DNA of 6,259 nt from Nitrospinae bacterium RIFCSPLOWO2_12_FULL_45_22 (GTDB lineage Bacteria > 2-12-FULL-45-22), in the NCBI GenBank assembly GCA_001803565.1, contig MHDQ01000206.1, positions 1 to 6,259 on the forward strand, read 5' to 3'. The notes below the pieces were generated by a model. It worked only from the letters and a program-made list of their open reading frames with translations. It was not told the DNA's origin and did no database searches. Below, piece by piece: positions 147-6,259 of this stretch (the stretch's first letter is position 1; every line of letters starts with the position of its first letter). The position numbers were made by a program, and so were the translations under genes.

Positions 147-362
147 TTAAATTGGTATCCGGTCTGAATTTTCTATTGTTTTCCATAAGTAATAGAATAT
201 ATAATATCCAAGGCTAATTTTCCATTTTTGATCCTCTAATATAAAAATAGCGGGAATTTTTTGATTTTTATAGTCGCTATAAATAGAATATTTTCCATTT
301 ATTCTAACTTCCTTCGGACTTCGCTCCGCTCGGTCGGTTGGCACGGAAAATTGCATAAGCAA
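147..362 (-). CDS. Possible reverse-oriented small ORF, 71 codons, unknown
   Basis: I do not recognise this ORF. Its first 18 codons lie inside the attC at 302-407, which is odd for a real gene. The rest, past the attC, is AT-rich coding sequence with a protein-like composition: many Tyr, Ile and Lys, two Trp, and a run reading IPAIFILEDQKWKIS. The plus strand over the same bases is full of stops. Possible ATG starts are at 362 and 356; no clear ribosome-binding site was found. The stop lies about six bases from a candidate left cassette boundary near 141, so the ORF would fill a cassette of about 260 bp in reverse. It may be a genuine reversed cassette gene, a fragment of a longer gene, or chance. 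Confidence 0.3.
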   Translation of the reverse strand: MLMQFSVPTDRAERSPKEVRINGKYSIYSDYKNQKIPAIFILEDQKWKISLGYYIFYYLWKTIENSDRIPI

Positions 363-407
363 TTTCCGCCCCCAACCGACGGCGGCTCATCCCGCTGGCC
401 GTTAGAC
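302..407 (+). other. attC recombination site (long, 106 bp)
   Basis: The outer ends are TTCTAAC (302-308) and GTTAGAC (401-407). Between them GTCGGTTGG (333-341) pairs with CCAACCGAC (372-380), and GGAAA plus TTGC (345-354, with A350 unpaired) pairs with GCAATTTCC (359-367). The left arm also carries a small CGGA/TCCG hairpin around 315-326. The site closes the cassette to its left. The recombination point is G401|T402, and cassette 1 begins at 402. It is longer than the other sites here, but within the range known for attC. Confidence 0.85.
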
Positions 408-429
408 TCCGCAGAGTGAATTGCGGACG

Positions 430-436
430 AGGAGGT
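430..436 (+). promoter_or_regulatory. Ribosome-binding site deciding the cassette 1 start
   Basis: AGGAGGT sits five bases before the ATG at 442. This near-perfect site favours ATG 442 over an in-frame TTG at 421, which would add only seven residues and lie upstream of the site itself. Confidence 0.85.
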
Positions 437-441
437 ATCTC

Positions 442-2148
442 ATGAGTAATTATCTAGTCCTTGACGTTGAAGCCCAAAATCCTGTGGTTAAGCAGCATGT
501 TAAACGCGTGGCGAATCGCACATATCGTCTTCCGGAATTTCAAAGAACGTTTGTTTGGGACAACGATCGGGTCTTGAAGCTCTGGGACAGCCTTTACCGC
601 GGGTTTCCAATCGGCCAACTCATGTTGTGGAAGCCAGATAGTGAGGACTTTCCAATGCGTGGCTTGGGCCGTAATCAAGCAGAGTTGCAGTCTAATGGAC
701 AATGCGAGGCCATCATTGACGGCCAACAACGATTGACCGCATTGTATCTGGTTCTCACTGGTGACATCCGACTTAGATTTGACTTGGAGAGGGACCGCTT
801 CACCTATAGTGAGGGCGAGAACTGCTTGCGCCTTGATGTTCTTCGTGACCTCGATGGTCGGCCAATAGAATTCGATGACGCTGCTGGTCGCCAGTTTTTC
901 AACCGCCACGCTACCGAAGCTCAAAGAAGTACATTTGGCCTAGTAATTGATCATCTCAATGGAATTCTTACAGAGAGACAACTCCCTTCTCAACTTATCA
1001 AGTCAGCTAACTATGCCACAGTCCTCGGGGTATTCAAGCGCCTAAACCAGCAAGGAGAACCTTTGAACGAAGCGCAACTTACCTTGGCAGGAATCTCCCC
1101 CCACTGGCCTGGTGTCTTTCGCCGGACGTACTCGCTCTTGCTCCGGATGAACTCAGAGATGGGTTTCGACCGAGCTGATGATCCCACATTCGTTTTCCAA
1201 GTCTGGACAGCAGTGCACACGCAACAGCACCTTATCAGACACCTCGCTCCCGAAGATGAGCGTTCAAAATACAAGAGGCTCGTCGACCAACGCCTCTATG
1301 AAGATTCTTGGTCACGAACAGAGCGTGGTATCAGTAGTCTTATCGAGATCATGCAACGTGATCTTGACCTAACTAACTTTCAGTTCATCAAGGCATACTA
1401 CCCCCTTCAAGTCGTCGCTCACTACCTTGCCTCACACGATGAACCAAGTGATGAGGAGATCAAATCGCTTCGTCGTTGGCTCATCCTAAGTCTCGTTTCT
1501 GGTCGTTACCACGAGAGCGCCTTGAGTAAGTACGGGGCTGACATCAAGGCCACTACGGAAAAGAAGTCTCTTCAAGACCTGTTTAGCCACAAGGGGAATG
1601 TACTTGACCCGGCGATAGTGCAAACTACTCTTGTCGATACTGACCGACTACTAAGTGCTACGTTTCGTTCCGCATACGTCACTCTTCTATATCTCATTTC
1701 CCGACAACTCGAAGCTACCGACTGGATGAAAACGGAAATTAAAGTCGGAGAACAACTTGAAGATGGGCCGTGGCACTTTCATCACATCTTTCCTGATGAG
1801 AGGTTCGATGGAGAACGTGCTCGGCTCAGGGATGAACTTGAGGATGCACAGTCAAGAGGTGACCACGAAGTCGCCAGAACTCTGGAGCAGGAACGCCAGC
1901 GACTTGAGGATCGAGTTGCATCAGTTGCAAATCTTGCATTCCTAATCCCACCGACTAACCAGAGCATCGGGAATCGTGCGCCGATTGATTATTTGGCAGA
2001 ACTTGCTTCAACGCCGAGCGGTCGTAAGGCGCTTGAATCGCAGCTTGTGCCACTTGATCCAGATCTTTGGAAACAGCCCGCGTTTGAGTTGTTCCGACGT
2101 CGCCGCTGTGAGCTGATCGTAGCGAAGGCAAAGGAGCTCTTCTTTTGA
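442..2148 (+). CDS. DUF262/DUF1524 protein, GmrSD-like modification-dependent nuclease candidate
   Basis: This is a 568-residue cytoplasmic protein. The N-terminal DUF262 domain shows LPEFQRTFVW (30-39), GFPIGQLMLW (54-63) and the hallmark IIDGQQRLTAL (91-101), the nucleotide-using ParB/Srx-like motif. A typical FKRLN motif follows at 198-202. The C-terminal part has a DUF1524 HNH-type centre: FHHIFP (446-451), then NLAFLIPPTNQSIGN (497-511), giving candidate catalytic His447/His448 and Asn497/Asn506. A charged, probably coiled segment (about 455-490) separates the two halves of the HNH. GmrSD and SspE relatives use NTP to cut modified phage DNA, and single-chain DUF262-DUF1524 fusions are common. 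A role in restricting foreign DNA is inferred from family only, and no substrate can be read from the sequence. Both domains look complete, without a frameshift. The attC begins 18 bases after the stop. Confidence 0.9.
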   Translation: MSNYLVLDVEAQNPVVKQHVKRVANRTYRLPEFQRTFVWDNDRVLKLWDSLYRGFPIGQLMLWKPDSEDFPMRGLGRNQAELQSNGQCEAIIDGQQRLTALYLVLTGDIRLRFDLERDRFTYSEGENCLRLDVLRDLDGRPIEFDDAAGRQFFNRHATEAQRSTFGLVIDHLNGILTERQLPSQLIKSANYATVLGVFKRLNQQGEPLNEAQLTLAGISPHWPGVFRRTYSLLLRMNSEMGFDRADDPTFVFQVWTAVHTQQHLIRHLAPEDERSKYKRLVDQRLYEDSWSRTERGISSLIEIMQRDLDLTNFQFIKAYYPLQVVAHYLASHDEPSDEEIKSLRRWLILSLVSGRYHESALSKYGADIKATTEKKSLQDLFSHKGNVLDPAIVQTTLVDTDRLLSATFRSAYVTLLYLISRQLEATDWMKTEIKVGEQLEDGPWHFHHIFPDERFDGERARLRDELEDAQSRGDHEVARTLEQERQRLEDRVASVANLAFLIPPTNQSIGNRAPIDYLAELASTPSGRKALESQLVPLDPDLWKQPAFELFRRRRCELIVAKAKELFF

Positions 2149-2166
2149 GGGCAACGACTTTGCGGA

Positions 2167-2226
2167 GTCTAACAAGGGCATGCACCTGACGGGCTTTGCC
2201 CGCAGGTGATGCCCATGCCGTTAGGT
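2167..2226 (+). other. attC recombination site (60 bp, textbook fold)
   Basis: GTCTAAC (2167-2173) and GTTAGGT (2220-2226) bound a near-perfect hairpin. GGGCAT (2176-2181) pairs with ATGCCC (2209-2214), CACCTG (2183-2188) with CAGGTG (2203-2208), and CGGGC (2190-2194) with GCCCG (2198-2202), around a TTT loop. G2182 and A2189 are left unpaired on the same arm, as the extrahelical bases that orient IntI recombination are. It belongs to cassette 1; the exchange point is G2220|T2221. Confidence 0.95.
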
Positions 2227-2230
2227 TTCA

Positions 2231-2237
2231 GGGAGGA
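2231..2237 (+). promoter_or_regulatory. Ribosome-binding site deciding the cassette 2 start
   Basis: GGGAGGA lies four bases before GTG 2242, just inside the cassette. It supports GTG as the start, in place of the in-frame ATG at 2206, which falls within the preceding attC and would be lost whenever the cassette moves. Confidence 0.75.
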
Positions 2238-2241
2238 CAAC

Positions 2242-3000
2242 GTGGATCAGCTATATCGCCAAGCACTAGAGATGATGGGCATAGCTTTTGATGCTTTGTC
2301 CCGCAAAGTAGGCGACCCTAAGCGGCAGCCGATGGGTGATGGGTATGTGTACCGTTACAAAGAGAAGTCGATTTATCAGGCGATCGTCCAGAAGTTAGCT
2401 AGAGTGATTACCGGACTACAAGCGATAAGCCTCCTGAATAAGGCTGGCCGCCTTCAAGAGCAGGCAGCATTGCAAAGGACCCTCGATGAATTCGAGGAAG
2501 ATATTGCCTTTTTGTGCTTTGGAATAATTTTCAACGAGATAACCGATCTACACAGAGAATACTTGGCCGCGTTCTATGAAGAGGAATTCGATGATCCGGA
2601 AAGCGCAATTCGCTCTACGCAAAAGCGTCCGATGATACCTAGAAGGAAAATCCTGGCATTTGTAAGTAAAGATAGGGGTACCGGTTACGATCAAAGCTCG
2701 ACAATAGAGATTGGGAGAACTATTAGTAAAATGTATTCTGGCTATGTTCACGGAGCATCTCCCCAATTAATGGAACTCTATTTTGGCAACCCTCCGCGAT
2801 TCCAGTTATCAGGCGGAGCCGATTCGCCTTTTTACGAAGATCACTTGGAGGATTTGCTCAACTACTATTATCGATCCATACTCTCGTTTGCATTTGCAGC
2901 TAAAGCCTTCGGTGAAGAAGCCCTATTCGGGAGAGTCCGCGACTATTCAGGGGAGTTTGCTGTCGCTTCCGGCCGCGAAAATCAGCTCCGTGAAACATAA
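2242..3000 (+). CDS. Unknown cassette protein, 252 aa, mostly helical
   Basis: I do not recognise a family with confidence. With the GTG start the protein has 252 residues, no signal peptide and no clear membrane segment. It reads as largely alpha-helical: an N-terminal helix with Met and Leu heptads, a basic YRYKEKSIYQAIVQKLARV stretch, an acidic LDEFEEDIAFL helix, an EEEFDDPESA acidic patch followed by a basic RRK segment, and a SGYVHGAS motif near residue 180. A long helical layout with one conserved-looking His near the end loosely recalls DUF5677-type proteins, but this is a resemblance only. The stop is followed directly by the cassette's own attC, with three bases between them, and the leader is only 21 bases. 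It is a complete cassette gene that probably needs an outside promoter. Its function is unknown. Confidence 0.85.
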   Translation: MDQLYRQALEMMGIAFDALSRKVGDPKRQPMGDGYVYRYKEKSIYQAIVQKLARVITGLQAISLLNKAGRLQEQAALQRTLDEFEEDIAFLCFGIIFNEITDLHREYLAAFYEEEFDDPESAIRSTQKRPMIPRRKILAFVSKDRGTGYDQSSTIEIGRTISKMYSGYVHGASPQLMELYFGNPPRFQLSGGADSPFYEDHLEDLLNYYYRSILSFAFAAKAFGEEALFGRVRDYSGEFAVASGRENQLRET

Positions 3001-3003
3001 GAA

Positions 3004-3062
3004 ACCTAACCCGCCACTCCAGCGGACGCGAAAAACCGCGCCGCTGATTTAGGTTGTTAGAA
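3004..3062 (+). other. attC recombination site (59 bp)
   Basis: The ends are ACCTAAC (3004-3010) and GTTAGAA (3056-3062). CAGCGG (3020-3025) pairs with CCGCTG (3041-3046), and CGCG (3027-3030) with CGCG (3037-3040), leaving A3026 unpaired. The inner stem resembles that of the site at 4797-4853 but not the one at 2167-2226. It belongs to cassette 2; the exchange point is G3056|T3057. Confidence 0.92.
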
Positions 3063-3078
3063 CTAGAAATAGAGAGTG

Positions 3079-4248
3079 ATGTTAGTAACAAGAATCATAG
3101 GAAAGTGCCCCGGATGCAAAAGAGAAAATTCATTTGGTAATGTGAATATTAATCAAAATTTGTTGCTCCGCGGATGTATTCATTGTGATTATTCAATACA
3201 AATTCCATTGCCAGCGCTTTCTAAGAAGATCATATATTTGGATCAGTTTTTCCTATCGCATGCCTTTAGAGAAAATTTAGAACAATTTGTTGAAGCGGCA
3301 AATATTATAGCTGAATTGGCACATGCACAACTTATTATCTGCCCTTGTTCACCAATTCATAAAACCGAAACGCTTCAGTGGAGGCACTCGCAGAAGGAAC
3401 AACTTTTAGAATTCATAAAAAAGACATCGCGGGGCAACGAATTCAATCCCGAGTATAGGATAAAGAGGGCGCAAATAACCAATAGCTTTAAAAGGTTTCT
3501 TGAAAACGACGAAAAGGTGCCATCGATTAGCCTACGTGATGCCTTACCAAGAGAGATTAATAACTGGGAAGATTATTTTTGGATTGATGTGAAAGGACTT
3601 CCTGAAGATACAGAAAGAATAAGAAAATCTAAAGAAGACTCAGTTGCCCAGCTCGTAGGACTATTTCAAAATTGGCGAACTCAAAATACAACTTTTGAGC
3701 AAGACCATCAATTCGAATTAATTGATGGTGCAAAAATATATATACAATTATACATTGAAATGGCTCAGCGTCTAGCCAATGGTGATTTTACGACTCTATT
3801 AGAATCGCCCATGATTGTTGAGACTCTATTGTATTTTGATAAAGACGAAATGGATATACAAAATCGCTTGAATCGAGTGATTGGTTTTTTTAAGTCGAAA
3901 TATTATTATGAGGTGCCGTGTGAATATATTTCATCTGGATTATTTGCCGCATTGAAACAGAAAGTAAAAAATGGGCACTACGTTAATGAGGAAAAAGCCA
4001 AGAAAACACTCAGTGGCATCTTTTATGATATTAGTTTTATTTCCACCTATGCTCCATATTGCGATGCCATGTTCATTGACAACCCAATGATTGATCTCGT
4101 CAAAGAACCGAAGCTAAATTTAGAAGAGAGATTTAATACTAAGTTTTTTGCCAGGAAAACCTGGAATGAATTTATAGACTATCTCACAAAGATTAAAGAG
4201 CAGAAAAGCCAGGAAATAGACTGGGGCCTCAGTCTTGTTCATGTATAG
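3079..4248 (+). CDS. Zinc-ribbon plus PIN-like domain protein, putative RNase
   Basis: The product has 389 residues. An N-terminal zinc ribbon is visible as CPGC (10-13) and CIHC (33-36). A PIN-like pattern follows: IIYLDQ with Asp55, a segment ICPCSPIHKTET ending at Glu97 and Thr98, and a late SFISTYAPYCDAMFIDN block with Asp329 and Asp334 (Asp317 lies just before it). These acidic residues would form the metal site of a nuclease. A long, charged, helical middle part (about 100-300) separates them. Family knowledge suggests RNA cleavage by a PIN-like fold; the target is unknown and the assignment is by motif only. I start at ATG 3079; GTG 3076 is one codon earlier. The ribosome-binding site is poor (GAGAG, too close). 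The gene is distinctly AT-rich compared with cassette 1, which points to a separate origin. It lacks an obvious antitoxin partner in the cassette. Confidence 0.85.
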   Translation: MLVTRIIGKCPGCKRENSFGNVNINQNLLLRGCIHCDYSIQIPLPALSKKIIYLDQFFLSHAFRENLEQFVEAANIIAELAHAQLIICPCSPIHKTETLQWRHSQKEQLLEFIKKTSRGNEFNPEYRIKRAQITNSFKRFLENDEKVPSISLRDALPREINNWEDYFWIDVKGLPEDTERIRKSKEDSVAQLVGLFQNWRTQNTTFEQDHQFELIDGAKIYIQLYIEMAQRLANGDFTTLLESPMIVETLLYFDKDEMDIQNRLNRVIGFFKSKYYYEVPCEYISSGLFAALKQKVKNGHYVNEEKAKKTLSGIFYDISFISTYAPYCDAMFIDNPMIDLVKEPKLNLEERFNTKFFARKTWNEFIDYLTKIKEQKSQEIDWGLSLVHV

Positions 4249-4256
4249 GTAAATTG

Positions 4257-4316
4257 TTCTAACCAATGGATAGCAGGGAGGCTCGCTCCTAGCGCCCCAC
4301 ACCCAAATCGTCAGAA
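4257..4316 (+). other. attC recombination site (degenerate right end)
   Basis: The left end TTCTAAC (4257-4263) is clean. The right end is either GTCAGAA (4310-4316) or CTTAGAA (4319-4325); each differs from GTTRRRY at one base. The arms pair only loosely, with a short GGAG/CTCC hairpin near the middle. Position, spacing and the following cassette gene still support an attC that closes cassette 3. Recombination here may be weak. Confidence 0.7.
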
Positions 4317-4330
4317 TGCTTAGAATGCTT
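4313..4330 (+). repeat. Tandem 9-bp repeat at the cassette 3/4 junction
   Basis: AGAATGCTT occurs twice without a gap (4313-4321 and 4322-4330). The repeat straddles the attC right end, so it gives two possible cassette 4 starts nine bases apart. It may be a scar of imprecise recombination or slippage. Confidence 0.85.
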
Positions 4331-4336
4331 AAGGAG
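4331..4336 (+). promoter_or_regulatory. Ribosome-binding site of the cassette 4 gene
   Basis: AAGGAG stands seven bases before ATG 4344, a strong and well-placed site that begins directly after the 9-bp repeat. Confidence 0.8.
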
Positions 4337-4343
4337 AAATCTT

Positions 4344-4670
4344 ATGTCATGGTATAAAATTACAATCTCGGCGCATCAAACGAATTTCGGGGAACATGGG
4401 AAAATCCAGGATCAGTTTGAAAAGATCTTTATTGTTATACAAAACCGACAAGACGTAGCTCTCTTTAGCAGCGGTTGGTCCCATTCAGACACGTTTAATA
4501 TATATTTTACACCGGCTTGTACGTCACACCCCGCAATGAAAGCTCTTATGGATAGTTACGGTGCGACTCCTTGTGACGAGCCTACCCGAGAGACTGAAAG
4601 TGAATTGAGCCTGCTTGTTGGTGAATCAAATAGATGGAGGAACCATATCTGGTCACCGGATCTTTCTTAA
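4344..4670 (+). CDS. Small cassette protein of unknown function, 108 aa
   Basis: This is a soluble protein of 108 residues with no signal peptide or membrane segment. It opens with MSWYKITIS, likely a first beta strand. A helix follows with IQDQFEKIF, then DVALFSSGW, a strand-like FNIYFTPACTSHPAM, a helix and turn MKALMDSYGATPCDEP, and LSLLVGE near the end. The alternating alpha/beta layout and the sharp motifs (ALFSS, YFTP, YGATPCDEP, LLVGE) look like a compact conserved single-domain family, of the kind often listed as hypothetical proteins in proteobacteria. I cannot name it or give a function. The gene has a strong ribosome-binding site. It is followed by 126 AT-rich bases without a gene before its attC, an unusually long tail compared with the other cassettes here. 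Confidence 0.85.
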   Translation: MSWYKITISAHQTNFGEHGKIQDQFEKIFIVIQNRQDVALFSSGWSHSDTFNIYFTPACTSHPAMKALMDSYGATPCDEPTRETESELSLLVGESNRWRNHIWSPDLS

Positions 4671-4796
4671 AAGGACCTAATAGGATTTTGTCTATTTGCA
4701 ATTACACAAAGTCAACTTCTCTATACACAAAAAAACGAGAGGCCAAAAGCATAAGACGTTAAATATGATGATCTTGTTTGATCAAAGTAACAAAAA

Positions 4797-4853
4797 TTCT
4801 AACGAATTTCTCCAGTGGACTCGGTTCCCTCGCCGCTGAAAAATTCGTTAGAG
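4797..4853 (+). other. attC recombination site (57 bp)
   Basis: TTCTAAC (4797-4803) and GTTAGAG (4847-4853) mark the ends. TCTAACGAATTT (4798-4809) pairs perfectly with AAATTCGTTAGA (4841-4852), and CAGTGG (4813-4818) pairs with CCGCTG (4833-4838) through one G-T wobble, with A4819 unpaired. It closes cassette 4; the exchange point is G4847|T4848. Confidence 0.92.
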
Positions 4854-5115
4854 GGCTGTATTATGATGAACCTCCGTTATCCGGAGCTAAGCGCAACGAT
4901 GAGGAGATATTAACCTGAAACCGGCATATAGACTAATCTAGAAGGTATAACTCTTTGCTGATAAAGGGAAAAAGCCATATGATATTTGCTGTCTAGACAG
5001 CAAAAGCTTATGTAGCCATAAATTGACTAATATTAGCTAATTATTTCTTTCAGGTATTATTATTTACTATAAAATTAAAGATTAATAAATATATTTTTTA
5101 TAAATAGGTAGAAAA
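4854..5115. other. Region without a convincing gene: cassette 5 start and AT-rich spacer
   Basis: The region begins with the first bases of a fifth cassette. The only ORF placed like a cassette gene is 4863-4913, 16 codons (ATG ATG, preceded by GAGGG), which is too short to call. A CTCCG/CGGAG mini-hairpin lies inside it. After that come a perfect palindrome (4985-5004) and strongly AT-rich sequence up to the transposase leader. No second attC end was found. The cassette is therefore either interrupted by the insertion sequence or the array ends here. The left end of the insertion sequence may itself lie in this stretch. Confidence 0.6.
4985..5004. repeat. Perfect 20-bp palindrome
   Basis: TTTGCTGTCTAGACAGCAAA is self-complementary over its whole length, with no loop. 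It is not followed by a T-run on the plus strand. Gapless two-fold symmetry is typical of operators for dimeric regulators or of protein recombination targets. No gene for such a protein is visible nearby. Confidence 0.9.
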
Positions 5116-5196
5116 GCGATCTCCAATCCTGTAAAATAAGCATATTAGGAGATTAAATTTAGTATATAATCCTATTCTACACAGAAGGGAGATCGC
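5116..5196 (+). promoter_or_regulatory. Inverted repeat able to sequester the transposase ribosome-binding site
   Basis: GCGATCTCC (5116-5124) is perfectly complementary to GGAGATCGC (5188-5196), which covers the Shine-Dalgarno GGAG of the transposase. The left half also nearly pairs with ATTAGGAGAT (5143-5152), with one bulge, giving an alternative fold. RNA from the element's own promoter would start after the left half and stay open, whereas read-through RNA from outside would fold and block translation. This arrangement is known from other insertion sequences and is inferred here. Confidence 0.55.
5165..5170 (+). promoter_or_regulatory. Probable -10 box of the transposase promoter
   Basis: TATAAT is an exact consensus -10, 28 bases before the start codon, so transcription would begin near 5177. 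No good -35 box is found 16-18 bases upstream, so the promoter is probably weak, as is usual for transposase genes. Confidence 0.55.
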
Positions 5197-5197
5197 C

Positions 5198-6259
5198 ATG
5201 TATATTATAGCAGATAGACCCAAGGAAATTCAGCCCGAAAAACTACCCCCAAGGAGAGAGCGGCGTGTAGAGCAGTTGGAACTTTACAGGAGATTCAAAA
5301 AGCTCAAGAAGCGAATCAAGGGCTGTGATCTTCCGGTAGACTTTGATAACGATAGTTGTACCTCTGTGGGTAACTTTGCCTCCATAGAGAGCTTTAAGAG
5401 GGGCATCGGATTTCTGGAGCAGATAAAGGGGTCACTAACCTTAAAGAAAGGAGCAAATAGCATGTTTGGTGCCCCGGAGATGATTGACTATCAAGTAGAT
5501 GCCTTGCTAGCTGGTTACTCCCGCATTGAGCATACAGAGCAGCTGCGCTTTGACCCTGGTTATCTTAAGGTCAAAGGGATCAAGTCCTTTCCCAGTGAGA
5601 AATGTTTTCGGGATCTTTATAGCCAGATGGAGGAAGGGCATCTGGCTGAGTTGGAAGGGCTCAATCTCTGGCTTATCAAGCAGAAGTCCCTCTGGGAGGG
5701 TCCTTGCTCTGTTAGCCTGGATTATGACGATACTGTGATCACCTTGCATGGTCAACAAGAGTTAGGGGAGGTGGGCTACAATCCCCGCTATCATGGTCGG
5801 CCTTCTCTGAAGGTCAAGGTCTGCTTTATCAGTGGGACCGATGAGGTCTTAAGTGCCCAGATATACGGGGGTAAGACCCACAGTAACGGGGGTTTTTTAG
5901 AGTTCCACAATGCCTGTGAGGCCAAACTCCCTCATAACTATGTCCTCAAGCGAGTCAGGTTGGACAAGGGTTTCTTTGATGAGGTAAACTTCCAATATTT
6001 TGAAGAGAGCACTAGCGAGTATATCTGCAAGGCCCCTTTAAAAGAGAATCTAAAGCGTGTGGCCTTAGATATATCTGACTGGGAGGAAATAAGCAAGCGT
6101 CACAGTGTGGCCGAGAGGACCCTGATCTTGCCTAGCTGGTCCAAACCGAGAAGGTTCATCTTCATTAGGGAGAAGATGGATCAGAATGGTCAGTTGTTGC
6201 TCCCAGGTCTCTATAAATACCAAGCTATTGTGACCAATATCGAGGAAGAGACTCCCCTG
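5198..6259 (+). CDS. IS1380-family DDE transposase (3' end missing)
   Basis: The frame is open from ATG 5198 to the window edge, 354 codons with no stop; family members are usually somewhat over 400 residues, so roughly the last quarter or fifth is missing. AAGGGAG (5185-5191) is the ribosome-binding site. The N-terminal region is basic (PPRRERRVEQ, KKLKKRIKG), which suits DNA binding. The first catalytic region is SLDYDDTVITLHGQQ (from residue 173; Asp175 and Asp177/178), with the HGxQ signature typical of IS1380. The second is RVRLDKGFFDE with Asp256. The catalytic Glu would lie downstream, mostly outside the window. There is no frameshift, so the copy may be intact. It would cut and move its own element, and, as ISEcp1 of the same family shows, such elements can mobilise neighbouring genes. 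Confidence 0.88.
   Translation, partial: MYIIADRPKEIQPEKLPPRRERRVEQLELYRRFKKLKKRIKGCDLPVDFDNDSCTSVGNFASIESFKRGIGFLEQIKGSLTLKKGANSMFGAPEMIDYQVDALLAGYSRIEHTEQLRFDPGYLKVKGIKSFPSEKCFRDLYSQMEEGHLAELEGLNLWLIKQKSLWEGPCSVSLDYDDTVITLHGQQELGEVGYNPRYHGRPSLKVKVCFISGTDEVLSAQIYGGKTHSNGGFLEFHNACEAKLPHNYVLKRVRLDKGFFDEVNFQYFEESTSEYICKAPLKENLKRVALDISDWEEISKRHSVAERTLILPSWSKPRRFIFIREKMDQNGQLLLPGLYKYQAIVTNIEEETPL

Follow-up and report, generated by a model that had tools for sequence, protein, structure and literature searches.

The window, that is the whole stretch of 6,259 base pairs (bp) analyzed here, is an entire contig (C206; MHDQ01000206.1) of Nitrospinae bacterium RIFCSPLOWO2_12_FULL_45_22, whose genome bin has a size of 3.67 Mb and a completeness of 85%. 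It contains a true four-cassette stretch of a bacterial integron array, with one open reading frame (ORF) per cassette. ORF1 is a predicted GmrSD-like protein and ORF3 represents a new family combining a zinc ribbon with a predicted split PIN-type nuclease fold. A preliminary description, made from the sequence alone, had seen five attC-like sites framing four genes, and four strong sites and one degenerate site were indeed recovered by a site finder, a covariance model, hairpin folding, and the complementarity of the cassette ends. The features are as follows.

302-407, plus strand: attC site 1, 106 bp with a long central hairpin (R'' TTCTAAC, R' GTTAGAC; bottom-strand fold -55.5)
401-2219, plus strand: cassette 1 (1819 bp), start and end self-complementary over 13 contiguous bases
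442-2148, plus strand: ORF1, 568 amino acids (aa), predicted fused GmrSD-like protein of the type IV restriction type (DUF262 and HNH)
2167-2226, plus strand: attC site 2, detected by the finder; 33.6 bits with covariance model R1 (training member)
2220-3055, plus strand: cassette 2 (836 bp), start and end self-complementary over 10 bases
2242-3000, plus strand: ORF2, 252 aa, helical protein; GTG start with GGGAGG ahead
3004-3062, plus strand: attC site 3, detected by the finder; R1 34.8 bits (plus) and 35.5 bits (minus) (training member)
3056-4309, plus strand: cassette 3 (1254 bp) with one ORF, start and end self-complementary over 8 bases
3079-4248, plus strand: ORF3, 389 aa, zinc ribbon and predicted split PIN-type nuclease fold (AlphaFold2 (AF2) model, VIA-align, conservation)
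4257-4316, plus strand: attC site 4 with a degenerate core (GTCAGAA); 15.9 bits on the minus and 5.5 bits on the plus strand; hairpin fold
4310-4846, plus strand: cassette 4 (537 bp), start GTCAGAAT against end ATTCTAAC with one mismatch (by eye)
4344-4670, plus strand: ORF4, 108 aa, without detected relatives
4797-4853, plus strand: attC site 5, detected by the finder; R1 32.5 bits (training member)
4847-5197, no strand assigned: further geneless cassette start or array remnant; core GTTAGAG at 4847, no ORF of at least 50 aa
5198-6259, plus strand: IS1380-family transposase, cut by the contig end (NCBIfam NF033539, 5.6e-54)

The rule-based finder accepts a site if R'' and R' pair with at most two mismatches and if, on the bottom strand, 70% or more of the half-site pairs across the axis. 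It found four plus-strand sites in the window (302-407, 2167-2226, 3004-3062, and 4797-4853), versus a single match in 60 dinucleotide shuffles (0.017 per window). The covariance model R1 was built from eight attC sites of the same genome, including the three short sites of the window, so that the scores of the latter (32.5-34.8 bits) are partly obtained by construction. Site 4, with R' GTCAGAA instead of GTTAGAA, reaches 15.9 bits on the minus strand (E = 0.015 for the window) and folds as a single hairpin with both R arms paired. We do not trust the orientation calls of the model, because the sites are near-palindromic and score on both strands. An Rfam search of the window at gathering thresholds gave no match; to our knowledge, attC is not an Rfam family.

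Independently of any training set, the starts of cassettes 1, 2, and 3 are the reverse complement of their own ends over 13, 10, and 8 contiguous bases, as opposed to 5, 5, and 0 bases in the comparison with the following cassette. Cassette 4 shows this complementarity at seven out of eight bases (by eye). Complementarity between the own start and the own end is expected of cassettes, because the attC site closes in the circular cassette form. All four ORFs start 20-45 bases past a core site, and in three of them no more than 20 bases separate the stop from the next attC site. A short metagenomic contig without intI and with one degenerate site could also be explained without an array, by chance palindromes or misassembly. 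We regard this as very improbable given the shuffle control, the paired cassette ends, the fit of the ORFs to the sites, and the homologs of ORF2 and ORF3 whose ends coincide with cassette boundaries elsewhere (see below). This explanation is refuted for sites 1-3 and 5, while site 4 alone could be a relic.

The full 6,259 bp of the contig, whose two ends coincide with those of the window, contain no intI gene. Two full IntI genes score over the curated cut-off elsewhere in the bin (contig C243, 1188-2132, and contig C304, 4868-5809). The C304 copy, on the plus strand, lies next to at least six attC sites detected by the finder, with its cassette ORFs running on the minus strand in the divergent arrangement typical of intI and cassettes, and the genome-wide search added single attC sites on contigs C216, C23, C320, and C261. 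The reading as an array, which the preliminary description had tied to covariance matches and to an integrase or further attC sites nearby, is thus backed by matches at the sites themselves and by IntI and attC elsewhere in the bin. The contig ends part the array of the window from its integrase, and neither IntI of the bin is physically tied to C206. Numerous partial or broken IntI-like genes also occur on C115, C136, C7, C317, C17, C287, C248, C95, and C106, which suggests several integrons, or repeated intI decay, in this genome. In C304, the IntI frame (4451-5815, 454 aa) carries about 130 extra residues upstream of where IntI usually starts, a second integrase fragment follows at 6749-7054, and a palindrome with perfect arms (CTCCAAC...GTTGGAG; 4140-4197) between the cassette array and intI is possibly attI-associated or a terminator.

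Library scans found no resistance gene in the array, as already noted in the preliminary description, and its two nuclease-like products are retained as predictions, ORF1 being GmrSD-type and ORF3 PIN-type according to domain matches, the AF2 model, and VIA-align. ORF1 matches Pfam GmrSD_N (PF03235) with 4.8e-29 and 102 bits (cut-off 33.2), GmrSD_C with 11.9 bits, which is under the cut-off of 23, and PDB entry 7p9k (3.9e-10), a DUF262 protein that we take to be BrxU. By domain type, as read from its sequence, ORF1 is a fused GmrSD-like (type IV) protein. Residues 91-101 (IIDGQQRLTAL) fit the GmrS motif (I/V)(I/V)DGQQRLT, while of the GmrD HNH motifs (E/D)HxxPQ, L(G/A)NLxLLxxxN, and NxxFxxKK (PMC4619093) the first two are present as HHIFP and VANLAFLxxxTN and the third has diverged (NQSIGN). 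The key residues of DGQQR and HHIFP/N/N are invariant in five relatives, and when ORF1 is aligned with four full-length relatives from plasmids (25-28% identity), DGQQR, HHIFP, and downstream N residues are likewise invariant. ORF1 thus shares with GmrSD, BrxU, and TgvB (PF03235, 7p9k; PMC4619093, PMC12409362) a DUF262 domain with DGQQR and an HNH-type second domain, but differs in the sub-cut-off GmrSD_C match, the NQSIGN motif, and the lack of a C-terminal tail, with which three of the four plasmid relatives extend past the end of ORF1. Type II and IV restriction genes are described as shortened in integrons (reviewed in PMC12409362), and ORF1 fits such a shortening, four relatives being too few as proof. 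The relatives of ORF1 adjoin a methyltransferase and a type III res gene, or sit near a restriction endonuclease gene.

For ORF3, no family was found at a usable score in Pfam, NCBIfam, PHROGs, or PADLOC, and its profile gave only chance matches among PDB sequences. A search seeded with two plasmid homologs yielded 83 relatives in one species-level genome scan, of which 80 were kept, from Pseudomonadota, Nitrospirota, Myxococcota, Bacillota, Planctomycetota, Acidobacteriota, Patescibacteria-type lineages, and others. Conservation and the AF2 model (predicted local distance difference test 92.9, predicted template modeling score 0.89) are based on an alignment of 58 sequences. ORF3 is predicted to have a PIN-type nuclease fold of which the two halves (about 48-100 and 313-363) are separated by a helical insert of about 200 residues (about 103-300), with a set of predicted catalytic acids. 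D55, E97, and D317 are found in all 58 sequences, D329 in 56, and D334 in 54 (with Glu in three more). The N-terminal zinc ribbon (C10, C13, C33, and C36) is kept in 55-57 of the 58, the remainder being gaps only, and resembles Elf1/RPB9-type ribbons at low Z in the model. The best 12 VIA-align matches of the model are all PIN-type (Z 5.1-7.6; 109-166 aligned residues), with VapC21 (best, Z 7.6), VapC11, VapC2, PRORP, and an rRNA-processing PIN protein at the top, and the next ones have a Z of at most 3.3.

ORF3 shares fold and acidic residues with VapC and other PIN nucleases (5sv2, 6a7v, PRORP 7e8j), but it has the large helical insert, the zinc ribbon, and no antitoxin, at 9-11% identity. 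The proximity of the fold to VapC toxins, together with the frequent occurrence of toxin-antitoxin cassettes in large chromosomal integrons, would agree with an addiction or array-stabilizing toxin like VapC or the cassette-borne toxin-antitoxin modules. This is improbable for a protein of 389 aa instead of about 130 aa, encoded by the only ORF of a cassette without an antitoxin candidate and solo in its homologs as well. A classical toxin paired with an antitoxin (VapBC) was rejected on the size of ORF3, the single ORF of the cassette, and the absence of room for an antitoxin gene.

The ORF3 family is mobile via cassettes and prophages. In Moraxellaceae UBA2477, the homolog is flanked exactly by two attC sites (7925-7982 and 9200-9270), and their cores, GTTAGGG and CCCTAAC, form the complementary ends of this cassette; an attC site directly follows the homolog in Rhodanobacter fulvus, within a short array, and directly precedes it in an Oceanospirillales bin. 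IntI over the cut-off is encoded in 15 of the 29 near-clade genomes versus 1 of the 40 distant-clade genomes (Fisher p = 1.7e-6, a value that overstates the contrast because the clades differ in taxonomic make-up). On viral contigs, ORF3 alone as a query gave no relatives and the alignment query gave six; near relatives (39-41% identity) are found on three prophage-type contigs. One prophage copy (L114) lies beside HsdM/HsdS and terminase genes, another (L113) beside baseplate, lysis, and methyltransferase genes. In L113, a DUF4238 gene (2678-3673) ends directly before the ORF3 homolog, and its product is a possible partner. In the tree, a Nitrospira sequence branches within a proteobacterial group, next to a sequence from Gammaproteobacteria, which points to transfer between phyla. 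The homolog on the Mesorhizobium plasmid pOM4 (7995-9193) is split into two overlapping frames and is therefore probably inactivated, whereas prophage copy L114 is whole. No ORF3-like DNA was found in E. coli genomes with two homologs as queries in a DNA search, which distant relatives would escape. The phylum of the window is represented by only two genomes in the searched set, and the searches with ORF2 and ORF3 within its order and this phylum covered only one other genome.

This distribution also bears on a role outside defense, with ORF3 (and perhaps ORF2) of a real array being a cellular stress or RNA-processing enzyme carried as general adaptive cargo. Non-defense roles are common among integron cassettes, the family is spread over many phyla including reduced genomes, and its neighborhoods are mixed with housekeeping genes. 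We nevertheless find such cargo rather unlikely, as ORF3 is patchy, solo, and mobile, with sequence similarity that crosses phyla (Nitrospira and Gammaproteobacteria), occupies accessory positions in prophages beside restriction genes, and has no conserved operon partner that we could see among its homologs.

Integrons as stores of anti-phage genes, a notion already raised in the preliminary description, are established for Vibrio and mobile integrons by the works cited in PMC12444791 and PMC12409362. With the anti-phage arrays of Darracq 2025, Getz 2025, and Kieffer 2025, as cited there, the window shares compact, attC-delimited, single-gene cassettes that are mostly uncharacterized and partly have defense-type domains. 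It differs in its sparsely sampled host lineage, in the integrase being off the contig, and in its gene functions being predicted. The array itself is another instance of this published type; the novelty lies in the zinc-ribbon split-PIN family, a PIN nuclease variant that recurs as a cassette. Both the DUF262/GmrSD and the PIN kind have experimentally validated defense members (PMC12409362, PMC13092281), which makes the array a reasonable place to seek defense modules, as had been proposed, with the restriction that two of the four cassettes have no assigned function. The closest description is that of DS-3 (DefensePredictor), a single, catalysis-dependent protein that has its PIN domain divided between the two termini, lacks an antitoxin, and was validated in E. 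coli (PMC13092281); the same paper states that the PIN domain was validated elsewhere too, citing among others work on mobile integrons. ORF3 is likewise a single protein with D55 and E97 before and D317-D334 after the insert, i.e., with PIN halves at both termini, but has an additional N-terminal zinc ribbon, DS-3 being compared by description and not by sequence.

On balance, we consider it fairly probable that this stretch of an integron array encodes two enzymes protecting the host, the GmrSD/BrxU-like ORF1 and the split-PIN ORF3, and that both are spread by cassette recombination. The array is bordered by an IS1380 element, and each attC-delimited cassette brings its own gene. Judging from fold and motifs, ORF1 would bind and hydrolyze nucleotide through DGQQR, and its HNH site would cut foreign DNA that is probably modified. 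The zinc ribbon and helical insert of ORF3 may recognize a trigger or nucleic acid, upon which the split PIN nuclease would cut RNA; in line with the proposal made for DS-3, the protein would need no antitoxin to stay inactive before infection. ORF1 and ORF3 would thereby protect the host from phages or plasmids. More tentatively, the ORF3 family may be a large undescribed anti-phage system that consists of one gene, needs no antitoxin, is carried from phylum to phylum by cassettes and prophages, and has no sequence kinship to DS-3.

Several points weigh against the defense interpretation. The nuclease activities, the defense role, and the control mechanism are predictions. The PIN likeness of ORF3 rests on a structure model with VIA-align Z values below 8, and Foldseek gave no significant match for this model. 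PADLOC has no model for ORF3 and lists ORF1 only as candidate HEC-05. The IntI contrast is confounded by taxonomy, the distant clade being rich in Alphaproteobacteria and Patescibacteria. The neighbors of ORF3 include Lamassu LmuA, a TIR effector, and PD-T4-6 but also ThiC, in a raw listing without a background rate. Known functions are the exception among cassette genes, in which published screens revealed many hidden defense genes; the array adds a concrete candidate to the cassette-borne anti-virus genes, and ORF3 offers a specific family that lends itself to testing, with over 80 members in one scan and a predicted catalytic site. The array also documents cassettes of this type in a phylum represented by just two genomes in the searched set.

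ORF2 and ORF4 are accessory cassettes without assigned function. ORF2 had no family match in the library scans, ORF4 none in the library and homolog searches, and neither had relatives in single-protein scans of viral contigs. A single-sequence structure model of ORF2 (pLDDT 42) was set aside. One homolog of ORF2 (42% identity, E = 8.5e-62) was found in Candidatus Nitrotoga sp. CP45, the genome of which also carries IntI and an ORF3 homolog. It is preceded by GTTAGGTTTC, ends with GAAACTTAAC, and is followed by an 86-base attC-like hairpin ending in GTTAGAC; the ends of cassette 2 in the window (GTTAGGTTTC and GAAACCTAAC) are nearly identical to these cassette ends. This lone ORF2-type cassette (1468-2232) lies between ubiA-like and CorA-like genes (named by reading, not by family search), and looks like a solitary cassette inserted between housekeeping-type genes.

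At the left end of the window, attC site 1 ends an upstream cassette that extends past the contig edge, and a reverse-strand frame of 71 aa with protein-like composition (147-362) lies in the AT-rich left end. The G+C contents of cassettes 1-4, as cut, are 0.51, 0.48, 0.37, and 0.42, and a ribosome-binding-like stretch is clear ahead of ORF1 (GAGGAGGT), ORF2 (GGGAGG), and ORF4 (AAGGAG). To the right of 4853, a brief gene-free stretch leads to the IS1380 transposase, of which a fragment with 92% identity occurs elsewhere in the same bin.

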